Assembly (NCBI GenBank): GCA_038881895.1
Contig: JAVZOV010000005.1
Coordinates: forward strand, 62,001 to 126,000
Direction: 5' to 3'
DNA: 64,000 nt
Origin: Thermoprotei archaeon
GTDB taxonomy: Archaea > Thermoproteota > Thermoprotei > Gearchaeales > WAQG01
A program made the position numbers and the translations under genes. The notes under the pieces were generated by a model. The model saw only the letters and a program-made list of their open reading frames with translations, made no database searches and had not been told where the DNA came from. Below are positions 16,448-44,992 of this stretch, piece by piece; the first letter of the stretch is position 1; the number at the start of each line of letters is the position of its first letter.

Positions 16448-16724
16448 AAAATACCGCTCCCTAACTTCACAACTCATAATCAATATAAAAGTATTAATTA
16501 TTCTTTCTATCTTTTTAGAGGCGAGCATTCTTTGAGATCTTGAGTTAAACTCTTTTTTCATCAATAAAGATTTTCATGGTTTTATTATAGATGGAATTTT
16601 TGATATTGATTTTTTCTTTAACTTCTTCTCTGTCCTGAATTGCAAGATTTTAATGATCATAGGAAAATATCAGAGTAGTTTTTCTTTTTATTTGGGACTG
16701 AAAATTTTGACCGTATAATAACAG

Positions 16725-16734
16725 TTATAAATAG
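16725..16734 (+). promoter_or_regulatory. TATA box for the nicotinate phosphoribosyltransferase gene
   Basis: TTATAAATAG lies 22-31 bases before the preferred GTG start. With the usual archaeal TATA-to-start-site spacing this places transcription initiation at or very near the start codon, implying a leaderless mRNA. Confidence 0.5.
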
Positions 16735-16755
16735 CCTACATCTTAACATATTTTG

Positions 16756-40734: not shown

Positions 40735-40985
40735 AACTTGCAAGAAGACCCCATCCGCAAGGGTGGGGATGAATTGCGTTAAACTTAAATAACTCAGAGT
40801 AGCACTTAAGTTTAGGAATGTTTCCTAACCGAGATTTGAACAGGGCTATAAACATAGCCCATGCCTTAATGAGAGGCATGGGATGGCGGAGCTGTGAGCC
40901 CCGCAAACCAGCAGATGCGACTGGAAGCGTAAAGCTCCAGACAAACGCTGGAAGCCCCTTGCGATAGCGAGGGGTAGTTCACTCC
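40735..40985 (+). mobile_element. TnpB-less IS200/IS605-type remnant D
   Basis: Fills the gap between polB and sufU. Left-end hairpin 40749-40768 (CCCCATCC, GCAA, GGGTGGGG) is followed by ATGAATTGCG and TTAAACTTAAATA. Right-end hairpin 40955-40974 (CCCCTTGC, GATA, GCGAGGGG, 8 pairs) is followed by TAGTTCAC at 40975-40982. The interior shares long blocks with remnant B (AACATAGCCCAT, CAAACCAGCAGATG, AGCGTAAAGCTC, AAACGCTGGAAGC). It is the best preserved of the four. The stop codon of sufU (40979-40981 on the minus strand) lies inside its terminal TTCAC. Confidence 0.8.
40803..40967 (+). pseudogene. tnpB 3'-end fragment in element D
   Basis: An open frame ending in a TAG at 40965-40967 encodes FPNRDLNRAINIAHALM, which is the RuvC-III motif (DRDxNAAxNI) that closes the TnpB nuclease domain, then GMGWRSCEPRKPADATG and KLQTNAGSPLR. 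The frame is cut by a TAG at 40800-40802, so the fragment has no start and lacks the other catalytic motifs. The left end joins directly to this tail, indicating an internal deletion of nearly the whole tnpB. Confidence 0.75.
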
Positions 40986-41407
40986 TCTTCTACCTTTTCT
41001 CTTAAGTATTTTTCTAGATCGAACTCTTTTCCTTCATATTTAGATATGCCTTCATTGAGGACTTTGAGTGAAAGTAGAGCACACTTCATTCGTGTTGGAG
41101 AGAGGTTTATTCCAAGCATACTAAGTATATCTTTCTTAGTTAATTTTTTCATGTCCTCAAGGTTCATACCCACGATTCTTTCCATTAACATTGATGCTGA
41201 AGCTTGACTTATTATGCATCCTTGTCCTCTGAATTTTGCGTCAACTACCTTACCATCCTTTATTTTTATGAAAATTTCTATGTGATCACCACATGGTATG
41301 TTATCATCCTCAGCATGTATATCAGGATTCTCTATTATGCCAACGTTTTTAGGATTTTTATAATAATCTAGGATTTCTTCCATTTGCAAATAGAAATCAT
41401 CACTCAA
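40979..41407 (-). CDS. sufU: Iron-sulfur cluster scaffold protein SufU/IscU-like
   Basis: A 142-aa scaffold or sulfur-acceptor protein. Three conserved cysteines are at NIPCGDHIEI near 38, GQGCIISQASA near 63 and RMKCALLSL near 114, matching the U-type fold, with the aspartate of CGD. Start overlaps the sufS stop by 4 bp, so it is coupled to the desulfurase. The C-terminal codons and stop run into mobile remnant D, so the last residues (KVEEE) may be altered by the insertion. Confidence 0.92.
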   Translation of the reverse strand: MSDDFYLQMEEILDYYKNPKNVGIIENPDIHAEDDNIPCGDHIEIFIKIKDGKVVDAKFRGQGCIISQASASMLMERIVGMNLEDMKKLTKKDILSMLGINLSPTRMKCALLSLKVLNEGISKYEGKEFDLEKYLREKVEEE

Positions 41408-42648
41408 ATTTTTAACCTCCTCCTTATTTTATTTAAAACGTCTATAAAAACATCAACTTCGTTTATATCATTATAAATGTAGAAGCTTGCTCGTGCAGTA
41501 GCCGTTACTCCTAATCGTGTCATGAGGGGCTGTGCACAATGATGCCCAGCTCTTATTGCTATACCTTCTGAATCTAAGATTGATGCAAGATCATGAGAGT
41601 GAAGATTACCTAAGTTAAAAGATATTACTCCACCTCTAAGTTCTGTATCTTTAGGACCATATATTTTCATATCCTCAATTTCTGACATTTGATCTAAAGC
41701 GTATTTTGTCAGTTCTTTTTCATGTTCTCTTATAGATTTCATTCCTATTGAATTGAGATAATCTATTGCAGCACTTAATCCTACTGCTCCCTCTACATTA
41801 GATGTTCCAGCTTCAAATTTCCATGGTAAATCATTCCATGAGCATTCAAACAATGAGCATGATTTAATCATATCTCCACCGCCTAAAAATGGACCAATTT
41901 TCTCCAGTATTTCTCTTTTACAATAAAGAACTCCTATACCCATAGGTCCTAGCATTTTATGTCCTGAGAAAGCAAAGAAGTCCGCACCAATGTTTCTAAC
42001 ATCTACCGGCATATGAGGTGTTGATTGCGCTCCATCAACAAGAAATAGTGCTCCTTTTTCATGAGCGATTTGTCCGATTTCCTCTACTGGGTTTATCGTT
42101 CCAAGCACGTTAGAAACGTGTGTAATGCTAACTAATTTAGTATGTTCATCGATAAGTTTTTCTGCCTGATCAACCTTTAAAAGACCTTCCTCATCTATAT
42201 CTATGAAACGCAATTCTACCTTTTTTTCTTGTGCAAGAAGTTGCCATGGGACTAGGTTACTATGATGCTCCATCACTGTGAGCACTATATTGTCACCTTT
42301 CGATATATTTCTCCAACCCCAAGCATAAGCAACTAGATTTATTGATTCAGTTGTATTCCTTGTGTATATTATTTCCTCCCACCGTCGAGCATTTATAAAT
42401 CTCGCAACTTTTTTCTTTGATTCTTCATAGAGTTGTGTCGCTTCTTCACTCAGTGCATATATTCCTCTGTGAATGTTAGCATTTTGCTCCTCATAATATT
42501 TTCTTATTGCTTCAATCACTTGCCTAGGTTTTTGAGACGTAGCAGCATTATCAAAATATATGAGCGGTTTGCCATAAAATTTTCTTTTGAGTATCGGGAA
42601 ATCCTCCTTAATTTGTTCTACGTTTATAACCTTACTAATACTGCCCAT
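41404..42648 (-). CDS. sufS: Cysteine desulfurase SufS
   Basis: Takes sulfur from cysteine for Fe-S cluster assembly, PLP-dependent. Starts GKPLIYFDNAATSQKPRQVIEAI. PLP lysine is in FSGHKMLGPMGIG near 227, and the active-site cysteine in RAGHHCAQPLM near 367. 414 aa is normal for group II desulfurases. Translationally coupled to sufU. The 195-bp gap upstream contains an inverted repeat and separates it from sufC. Confidence 0.95.
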   Translation of the reverse strand: MGSISKVINVEQIKEDFPILKRKFYGKPLIYFDNAATSQKPRQVIEAIRKYYEEQNANIHRGIYALSEEATQLYEESKKKVARFINARRWEEIIYTRNTTESINLVAYAWGWRNISKGDNIVLTVMEHHSNLVPWQLLAQEKKVELRFIDIDEEGLLKVDQAEKLIDEHTKLVSITHVSNVLGTINPVEEIGQIAHEKGALFLVDGAQSTPHMPVDVRNIGADFFAFSGHKMLGPMGIGVLYCKREILEKIGPFLGGGDMIKSCSLFECSWNDLPWKFEAGTSNVEGAVGLSAAIDYLNSIGMKSIREHEKELTKYALDQMSEIEDMKIYGPKDTELRGGVISFNLGNLHSHDLASILDSEGIAIRAGHHCAQPLMTRLGVTATARASFYIYNDINEVDVFIDVLNKIRRRLKI

Positions 42649-42843: not shown

Positions 42844-43605
42844 TCAGTTAGTTAAAAATTGTTGCGTAAGCCATCCATAACCTTTTGCTTCTAATTCTTC
42901 CGCTAATTTATAATCTCCAGATACCACTATTTTACCGTTCAGAATTACATGGACGTAGTCTGGTTTTATATATTTCAAAATTCTTTGATAGTGTGTTATC
43001 ATTAGTATTGATCTGTTTTGATCCCTTAATGAATTTATAGCCTGTGCTATAATTTTTAATGAGTCTATGTCAAGACCTGTATCAACTTCGTCTAGGATTG
43101 CTAGTTTTGGTTTGAGTATTAACATTTGCAAAACTTCGTTCTTTTTGCGTTCTCCGCCAGAGAATCCCTCATTAAGATATCTTTTTGCAAACGATTCATC
43201 CATATTAAGCATGGATATTTTTTCTCTAATAATTTTCATAAATTCCGCTGGGGATACTTGTACTTCACCTGATTGCCTTACTATCATATTGTACGCAGTT
43301 CTTAAAAAGCCTACAAGAGGAAGTCCTTGAATTTCTAGTGGTGTTTGGAATGCTAGAAATAACCCCAACCTTGCACGCTGGTCAGTAGTCAGTTGTAAAA
43401 TACTTTGACCATTAAAGAATATGTCTCCCTCTGTGATTTTATACTTTGGATGACCCATTATTGAATAAGCTAGTGTGCTTTTACCCGATCCGTTAGGACC
43501 CATAATTGCGTGTACTTCACCTTGATTGATAGCCAGATTAATACCCTTTAAGATCTCTTTACCTTCTACTGCTACCTTGAGATTTTTTATTTCTAGTAAT
43601 GTCAT
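42844..43605 (-). CDS. sufC: Fe-S assembly ATPase SufC
   Basis: A 253-aa ABC-type ATPase that normally partners SufB/SufD. Walker A is GPNGSGKST near 37, the ABC signature is FSGGERKKNE near 149, Walker B is LAILDEVDTGLDIDS near 170 and the H-loop is MITHYQRI near 203. SufB and SufD are not in the window. The promoter region shared with the HTH gene carries the 30-bp palindrome. Confidence 0.95.
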   Translation of the reverse strand: MTLLEIKNLKVAVEGKEILKGINLAINQGEVHAIMGPNGSGKSTLAYSIMGHPKYKITEGDIFFNGQSILQLTTDQRARLGLFLAFQTPLEIQGLPLVGFLRTAYNMIVRQSGEVQVSPAEFMKIIREKISMLNMDESFAKRYLNEGFSGGERKKNEVLQMLILKPKLAILDEVDTGLDIDSLKIIAQAINSLRDQNRSILMITHYQRILKYIKPDYVHVILNGKIVVSGDYKLAEELEAKGYGWLTQQFLTN

Positions 43606-43640
43606 AATTTTTCACTCCTTTTTGTAAATAATAGCGGTAT

Positions 43641-43670
43641 ATTTAAATATAACTTAAGTTATATTTAAAT
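43641..43670. promoter_or_regulatory. 30-bp perfect palindrome: bidirectional promoter/operator of sufC and the HTH regulator
   Basis: The 30 bases read ATTTAAATATAACTT then AAGTTATATTTAAAT, a perfect dyad with no spacer. The sufC start is 36 bp to the left and the regulator start 23 bp to the right. Each half contains a TTTAAATA/TATTTAAA-type TATA element, so the two divergent promoters overlap the dyad. A dimeric HTH protein such as the adjacent gene product could bind here and control both genes. Confidence 0.7.
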
Positions 43671-43692
43671 TGATGACGTTAAGGTGATTTAA

Positions 43693-44076
43693 TTGATATT
43701 ACCTGATGAAATAATAGCAAAGGCAGTAATTCCTGCGTTAAGGGCAATGATTGCTAAAGAGCTTATTGAAAAATATGGACTTACTCAGCAGTCTGCTGCG
43801 AAGCTTCTTAATGTAAGTCAAGCAGCGATAAGTAATTATATGAGGGGCATCAGGGGAATAGTAGTGAACCTTGAACAAGATAAGGATATAAGAACGATCA
43901 CATCAAATATTGCTGATATGTTGGTTAATAACAGTGATCCTAAAGATATAGTATCCATGTTCAATCTGGCTATAAGGATTATTACTATGCGGGGAATATT
44001 ATGTAATGTTCATAAGAAATTCGAACCTATTTTTGAGAATTGCGATATATGTAATATAAAACCGTTTCTTTCATAA
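43693..44076 (+). CDS. HTH regulator with C-terminal cysteines, divergent from sufC
   Basis: A 127-aa protein. The DNA-binding part is LTQQSAAKLLNVSQAAISNYM (about 32-52), a XRE/Lambda-repressor-like HTH, preceded by IPALRAMIAKELIEKYG. The C-terminal half is helical and ends with three cysteines in GILCNVHKKF and ENCDICNIKPF (about 105-122), a candidate metal or Fe-S site. It resembles a small archaeal predicted-regulator family (COG2522-like). TTG start at 43693. Its place opposite sufC, over the palindrome, suggests autoregulation and control of Fe-S assembly. Confidence 0.78.
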   Translation: MILPDEIIAKAVIPALRAMIAKELIEKYGLTQQSAAKLLNVSQAAISNYMRGIRGIVVNLEQDKDIRTITSNIADMLVNNSDPKDIVSMFNLAIRIITMRGILCNVHKKFEPIFENCDICNIKPFLS

Positions 44077-44176: not shown

Positions 44177-44992
44177 GTGGCAAAATGTCAGGTGTGCAAC
44201 AAAGATATCGCATTACCATTTACTTGCAGATATTGCGGTGGAACATTTTGCGCTGAACACCATTTGCCAGAAAATCATAATTGCCCTGGATTATCTCGTC
44301 AAAAAGAATTGTGGAAAGAGCTCATAATGTACGAACCACAAAAGAAGAATGTGATGCAGGTTCTTAAGTTACATTCCAGGTCTAGAAGATTAAGAATGCG
44401 CCTGAGTAATCTTTTGTTAGGAACAGAATTTAGAAGACTATTAACAGCAATTTTTGTGATTTTTATAGTGATAAGTGGTATAGACATATTTGGTTTGTTT
44501 TATGGTAATCTTAAACCTGCTTTTATATTAGTTGCGATTATATTAGGTTTTGTGATACATGAATTGGCACATAAATACGTTGCTATAAGAAAGGGTTTTT
44601 TTGCTGAGTTCATGTTTGATACACGTTGGGCTTTAATAAGCTTACTTACTACATTTTTGCCATTCAAGCTTTTAGCAACAGGATACGTAGCCATAATAGG
44701 CAATGTGAGCCCGCGGGATTCTGGTAAAATAGCTGCAGCTGGACCATTAATGAATATTTTGATTAGTTTAATTTCGTTAAGCGCTTTTCAAACTCTTTCT
44801 TTATTCTATGGGTTTTCGATTGTTAGTGCATTTTTACTTACTGTTGCTTATGTAAACTCTTATCTTGCTTTATTTAACATGCTTCCTATTCCCCCATTAG
44901 ATGGAAGTAAGGTTTTTGGATGGAGCATGAAGAACTGGGCTTATTTATTTATAGCCAGTGTAATATTATTGATCTCATCAGTATATATTTAA
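44177..44992 (+). CDS. AN1 zinc-finger/M50 (site-2 protease-like) membrane protein
   Basis: A 271-aa protein. The N-terminus is an AN1-type zinc finger ([32 protein letters not shown]; about 4-40). A basic linker follows, then five or so transmembrane helices. The metalloprotease motif is HELAHKYVA near 129, and the second metal ligand is in [14 protein letters not shown] near 234. This is the M50 layout of intramembrane proteases. The PDZ domain found in bacterial RseP is absent. GTG start at 44177. Substrate unknown. Confidence 0.85.

Follow-up and report, generated by a model that had tools for sequence, protein, structure and literature searches.

Fe-S cluster assembly is essential and ancient, yet we found no description of a dedicated archaeal regulator of Fe-S biogenesis in the open-access literature that we searched (subscription papers fell outside the scope of the search). 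A 64,000-nucleotide stretch of DNA from a Thermoprotei archaeon, analyzed at its full length and hereafter called the window, raises the question of whether such a regulator and its operator can be recognized beside sufC. A sequence-only reading of the locus had proposed that a palindrome between sufC and a divergent helix-turn-helix (HTH) gene belongs to an IscR/SufR-like, Fe-S-sensing repressor of sufC and of itself.

A perfect palindrome lies between sufC and a divergent HTH gene

The Fe-S assembly ATPase gene sufC (42844-43605, minus strand; TIGR01978, E=4e-105) is the first gene of the operon that we propose to be controlled, and is followed on the same strand by sufS, encoding a cysteine desulfurase (41404-42648; TIGR01979, E=5e-185), and by a gene for a sufU-like sulfur-transfer/scaffold protein (40979-41407; TIGR01994, E=4e-28). 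Divergent from these, on the plus strand, a gene with a TTG start encodes a 127-aa XRE-type HTH protein (43693-44076), hereafter the regulator. Between sufC and this gene lies ATTTAAATATAACTTAAGTTATATTTAAAT (43641-43670, assigned to neither strand), a perfect 30-bp palindrome of two 15-nt arms with no mismatch and no spacer, which we propose as an operator common to both promoters. Among perfect even palindromes in the window it alone has arms longer than 9 nt, and no second copy is present in the window at up to three mismatches, where chance would also give none. In 60 first-order Markov copies of the window the longest palindrome arm did not exceed 12 nt. These copies were built on average composition and so somewhat understate the chance in AT-rich intergenic stretches, which by our estimate is nevertheless only about 1e-7 per position.

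Each arm contains a TATA-like element, TTTAAATATA. The left-arm copy (43642-43651, plus strand) is assigned to the regulator gene by sequence reading and by its distance to the start codon, and the right-arm copy (43660-43669, minus strand) to sufC by sequence reading. Both are good candidates for archaeal TATA boxes, an inference made from sequence alone. They lie at suitable distances from the start codons and ribosome sites, although no start has been mapped: transcription of the regulator gene is predicted to begin near 43672, with a short leader containing GGTGA (43683-43687), and that of sufC near 43640, upstream of AGGAG (43615-43619). The earlier claim of a mismatch-free palindrome covering both TATA elements thus held, with the TATA elements still resting on sequence reading. 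The part of the palindrome that is kept at other Fe-S, sulfur and iron promoters is its core, TATAACTTAAGTTATA, or TATAAC-N4-GTTATA (43648-43663, likewise strandless).

The gene downstream of the regulator (44177-44992) appears to encode a membrane metalloprotease of the M50 family that bears an AN1 zinc finger at its N-terminus. The regulator gene of two relatives, G003 and G004, is instead divergent from a gene for an HtpX-like protease.

The regulator carries an invariant set of three cysteines and one histidine

The regulator matched PF01381, the XRE/lambda-repressor-like HTH family, significantly (E=4.6e-7; 30.2 bits against a cut-off of 23), and in Pfam it matched HTH_3-like domains and nothing else. 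Residues 41-55 (VSQAAISNYMRGIRG; codons 43813-43857, plus strand) span the predicted recognition helix (43-50), and the segment QAAISNYMR in this region is identical in L007, L008 and L010. DNA binding by the 127-aa protein is strongly suggested, but this is an inference made without binding data.

The only Cys and His residues of the protein are C104, H107, C117 and C120, arranged as CxxH-x9-CxxC (codons 44002-44052, plus strand). An alignment with seven orthologs that share 33-46% identity with the regulator, eight sequences in total, showed all four to be invariant, so that the conservation of this putative ligand set is established computationally. The sequence-only reading had seen a CxxC and a third cysteine near the C-terminus, and would have been refuted had the cysteines not been conserved. 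Both the observation (C117, C120 and C104) and the idea survive this check in the closest orthologs; what it had missed is H107.

An AlphaFold2 model built from 24 family members was confident and all-helical (pLDDT 90.7, pTM 0.85), with a long first helix, the HTH at residues 32-50, two long helices, a short helix bearing C104 and H107, and a terminal loop bearing C117 and C120; ligand geometry was not measured. A fold search with this model against the PDB returned nothing at E<=0.001, only weak matches to XRE-type HTH domains, and a sequence search of the PDB matched the HTH alone, with no solved structure matching past it.

The proposed operator core marks Fe-S, sulfur and iron promoters across the genome

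We counted sites by pattern search across the organism's own genome (G000; 1.75 Mb in 7 contigs, 97% complete). At up to two mismatches, the core TATAACTTAAGTTATA was found at the window site, before feoC-feoB, an FTR1 gene and a dsrE gene, at one other intergenic position and at two positions in coding sequence. A pattern merging the two observed centres (CTTAAG and CATATG), TATAACWTAWGTTATA, added at one mismatch a single match to those of the core scan, 14 bp before sufB. With at most one mismatch allowed, this pattern has exactly five sites in the whole genome, against 0.98 expected, and all five are in promoters: those of sufC and the regulator, sufBD, feoC-feoB, the FTR1 permease gene, and dsrE-tusA-cysteine synthase (cysK-like). 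Searches of Pfam and NCBIfam confirmed the target families (FeoC, FeoB, FTR1/EfeU, DsrE, TusA, cysteine synthase and FeS_assembly_P). The regulon is thus shown at the level of computation, and the original proposal that the targets are sufC and the regulator's own gene was too narrow, as the site is also present at sufBD and at iron-uptake and sulfur-carrier genes. Since sufBD lies about 100 kb from sufC in this genome, a common operator would reunite a split suf system.

Looser definitions were less informative. The DUF59/sufT gene has a two-mismatch site 11 bp before its start; at that level the genome as a whole is near background (19 sites versus 13 for the reversed pattern). The free-centre pattern TATAACNNNNGTTATA at one mismatch also gave mostly background (22 versus 14 for the control) and was dropped as a definition of the regulon. 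One site within one mismatch of the free-centre motif, TATAATAACAGTTATA at window positions 16714-16729, lies 39 bp ahead of a gene (395 aa, at 16753) whose product looks by eye like a nicotinate phosphoribosyltransferase; it may be background or possibly a weak additional target.

The core recurs at suf promoters of relatives that carry the regulator

Orthologs with the CxxH...CxxC set were found in three genomes of the same order (G002-G004) and in four of another lineage, two of which are Candidatus Pelearchaeum. In six of these relatives we found suf genes, and in all six an exact TATAAC-N3/4-GTTATA precedes sufC, sufB or both. By comparison, among 40 further members of the class that lack this type of regulator, the best match before any suf gene had at least three mismatches. 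With the window genome included, the contrast of 7/7 with 0/40 would have a probability of 1.6e-8 if genomes were independent; their kinship means that this figure overstates the case. Across the seven genomes with both regulator and suf genes, 23 of 31 exact sites lie at Fe-S, sulfur or iron genes (sufC, sufB, tusA/dsrE, rhodanese sulfurtransferase, sulfite reductase, the A-type carrier gene iscA and FTR1), and the reversed-pattern control gave seven matches in total. The centres of sites elsewhere are often GC-rich (GGC, GCC, GCT), and their distance to start codons ranges from -52 to -8. G002, in which suf genes were not found, has exact sites at two OsmC genes and a ZIP transporter gene.

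Conservation of the operator is thus shown computationally, in a form different from that first imagined. Absence of the palindrome from relatives had been named as grounds for refutation; the full 30-bp form is indeed not shared, but its core is present at the suf promoters of all six relatives and also precedes many regulator genes. The pairing of the regulator gene with sufC is not conserved, the two being adjacent in no relative that we examined.

L221:2643-3386 and L223:2616-3365 encode a further HTH protein, about 248 aa long, whose C-terminal part weakly matches rubrerythrin-like sequence. Its gene is divergent from FTR1 in G082 and, in G083, from a gene for a phosphonate-type binding protein; an exact TATAACGGTGTTATA lies between the divergent genes.

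Proposed operators and recognition helices co-vary among sampled members of the regulator family

A profile of the regulator family matched 286 of 299 sampled Thermoproteota genomes, a count that includes ThiR-type paralogs and ammonia-oxidizer-type genomes. A site with at most two mismatches was present within 120 bp upstream of the regulator's own gene at 20 of 29 family loci, compared with one for the reversed control; this sample includes a few near-identical loci, and some members of an alternative-palindrome branch were counted at two mismatches. A strict palindrome score had missed own-promoter sites that the motif scan later found. The orthologs L007, L010 and L024 have no clear own-promoter site.

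A second branch of the family lacks CxxH...CxxC and has instead a CE near the N-terminus and a later CxxC; its members often have cysteine desulfurase and IscU-type genes as neighbors. G011 has just two exact sites in its genome, which stand in tandem before an operon of a PLP enzyme gene, a family member, sufS, iscS and iscU, and both exact sites of G008 are in or before the sufS and iscS-iscU operons. Family paralogs with other recognition helices are associated with other palindromes: TATTACAATTGTAATA before members that adjoin FTR1 and/or are divergent from flavodiiron protein genes, TACAACGGCGTTGTA (TACAAC-GTTGTA) before the sulfite reductase-tusA-REG2 operon, and ACATGTTTATAAACATGT between a ThiR-like paralog and thiD. 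This co-variation of operator and helix is our main reason for naming the regulator family as the binder, and the link between operator and family is itself shown computationally. At cytX-thiD in G029 an almost identical motif goes with a ThiR-type member, so the motif alone does not identify its binder.

In ammonia-oxidizer-type genomes no such site was found near the orthologous gene, a search confined to its neighborhood that excluded suf promoters. These genomes (L269-L278, their lineage inferred from gene content and genome size) each hold one CxxH...CxxC member in a conserved neighborhood without suf genes and without the motif. In the organism's own genome a third family paralog (L022:2630-3032; G000 C2:265.6 kb) is broken by in-frame stops, has TATTACAATTGTAATA upstream and is immediately followed by an FTR1-like reading frame; G274 has an intact regulator-FTR1 pair with the same TATTACAATTGTAATA palindrome. 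Nearby on that contig (L022:4843-5193), a recurring FQALIGILKT-like translation suggests an array of repeats, either short tandem or CRISPR-like.

A proposed mechanism and its rivals

We consider it likely that the HTH protein is an autoregulated one-component repressor of an Fe-S, sulfur and iron regulon, responding to a cluster (or iron/persulfide) signal; binding, repression and signal are all inferred. Regulator dimers would bind at TATAAC-N3/4-GTTATA, in positions overlapping TATA boxes or transcription starts. A single operator, that of the window, would silence sufCSU and the regulator's own gene together, and other copies would control sufBD, sufT, feoC-feoB, FTR1 and dsrE-tusA-cysteine synthase. 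The signal would most likely be the state of an Fe-S cluster (or the supply of iron or persulfide) held by the three Cys and one His: with clusters plentiful the holo-protein would repress, and loss of the cluster would lift repression.

We favor repression over activation, without direct evidence, because the sites overlap either TATA boxes (sufC and the regulator gene here, and sufC and sufB in G003 and G004) or a probable transcription start or leader (sufBD, dsrE and G081-G084), the start sites being themselves inferred. Cluster-dependent repression is favored because a cell running short of clusters would be expected to raise the targets, which serve cluster assembly, sulfur delivery and iron import, and because the ligand composition is like that of IscR. 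Cluster sensing remains a reasoned guess that could go either way, as there are no cofactor data. The original idea of an IscR/SufR-like Fe-S-sensing repressor is supported, with the sensing step still an inference and a zinc or thiol sensor not excluded.

That sensor is the main rival. It keeps the same protein, operator and regulon but takes CxxH/CxxC to be a structural zinc site or a thiol/persulfide switch, with sulfur or redox state as the signal, as for SurR. In its favor, sulfur-carrier genes (tusA, dsrE, rhodanese, sulfite reductase, cysteine synthase) are as abundant in the regulon as Fe-S genes; CxxH...CxxC resembles a zinc site, is found in ThiR-type and further members of the family as well, and might be structural; and SurR is an archaeal precedent for a CxxC sulfur switch (PMC12162507). 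Against it, the targets include the iron importers feoB and FTR1 and the Fe-S-specific sufB, sufC, sufT and iscA, and the ligand set of IscR likewise comprises three Cys and one His (PMC8593673). In addition, members beside suf/isc genes use the different three-cysteine set described above, which suggests a functional rather than a purely structural site. On balance we lean slightly against this rival.

The remaining alternatives concern the binder or the palindrome itself. Another iron regulator, such as a DtxR-family protein, might bind the palindrome and the HTH gene be a mere target; DtxR control of feo and FTR1 is common in prokaryotes, and the genome encodes one DtxR-family protein, at the head of an operon with genes for a metal-binding protein and an ABC transporter. 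However, the promoter of that gene (L116:5492-5522, G000 C2) has tandem TTAGGTTCAGCCTAA / TTAGGTTGAGCCTAA, DtxR-type TTAGGTT...CCTAA boxes unlike the palindrome, and the TATAAC-GTTATA site tracks HTH family genes across the phylum. We rejected DtxR as the binder on the evidence of its own promoter and regard this reading as very improbable. Just as improbable is the reading in which the palindrome serves merely as a bidirectional promoter, its two TATA boxes mirroring each other, without a dedicated operator function. Both arms do contain a TATA-like sequence, and archaeal promoters are often bidirectional; but elsewhere TATAAC-N3/4-GTTATA is kept, often with GC-rich centres and at variable distances from starts, occurs mainly at Fe-S, sulfur and iron genes, and is absent from the suf promoters of the 40 other class genomes. 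Finally, the paralog REG2 (139 aa; sulfite reductase-tusA operon, G000 C2:239 kb) might bind some or all of the sites, given its nearly identical recognition helix (KQQAISNYMRG) and its place in a sulfur operon. This is unlikely, as another palindrome, TACAACGGCGTTGTA, precedes the REG2 operon, and the TATAAC form covers the window regulator's own promoter.

Implications and comparison with known regulators

The proposed repressor would act as a switch by which genes for building clusters, handling sulfur and taking up iron are turned on or off together, in many relatives as well. With the protein family named, its operator defined precisely, its targets listed and four ligand residues pinpointed, an open question can now be put to the test. 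The family is near-universal in Thermoproteota, including ammonia oxidizers, where iron supply has ecological weight. A bolder reading, for which the case still falls a little short, is that this family holds an unrecognized archaeal system of Fe-S and sulfur homeostasis, made up of cluster-sensing XRE-type repressors with exchangeable Cys/His sites, from which ThiR branched off by gaining an enzyme-derived sensor domain. For an archaeal suf regulator, and equally for ThiR sites, the open-access literature that we searched gave no direct match; the class of regulator is known, and the family assignment, operator and regulon are probably undescribed.

IscR, of the bacterial Rrf2 family, regulates Fe-S assembly genes and itself, with a [2Fe-2S] cluster held by three Cys and one His (PMC8593673). 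The regulator resembles it in its place at Fe-S assembly genes, in its inferred self-regulation and in ligand composition. It differs in being an XRE-type PF01381 protein, in the order C-x2-H-x9-C-x2-C and in its operator, and no cluster has been shown for it; Pfam and NCBIfam gave no match to the Rrf2 winged HTH. SufR, a DeoR-family protein of cyanobacteria and some actinobacteria, is dedicated to suf, autoregulated and bound to a perfect palindrome, CAAC-N6-GTTG (PMC8593673). Shared with it are the inferred role, a palindromic operator at suf promoters and the half-site letters AAC...GTT. The fold families are unrelated, however, and SufR has the ligands C-X12-C-X13-C-X14-C and a spacer of 6 rather than the 3-4 of the archaeal site. 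The regulator has no DeoR HTH match in Pfam or NCBIfam and only three Cys, at spacings of 12 and 2, and the suf promoters here carry TATAAC-N3/4-GTTATA in place of CAAC-N6-GTTG.

SurR, the ArsR-type winged-HTH protein of Thermococcales, is likewise archaeal, controls sulfur-related genes and has a CxxC, and its motif GTTn3AAC has the same letters as the regulator's site in mirrored order (PMC12162507). It belongs to another fold family, with its CxxC in the N-terminal DNA-binding domain and a regulon of hydrogen and sulfur energy metabolism; our protein does not qualify as a SurR, its HTH being XRE-type and its CxxC lying at residues 117-120. Archaeal metal regulators of the DtxR/IdeR type also control feo and other iron genes; they differ in family and operator, and the DtxR of this genome has TTAGGTT-type boxes. 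The regulator is kin to ThiR, the archaeal HTH-ThiN thiamine regulator, represented in the organism's own genome by the ThiR-like paralog L003 (309 aa, beside thiD). The N-terminal HTH and the CxxH...CxxC region are homologous, and in one genome the cytX-thiD operator is very similar. Unlike ThiR, the regulator ends at residue 127 without a C-terminal ThiN sensor domain, for which Pfam gave no match, and its targets are Fe-S, sulfur and iron genes. We conclude that it is a relative of ThiR without ThiN, IscR- or SufR-like in its inferred function and neither of these by fold.
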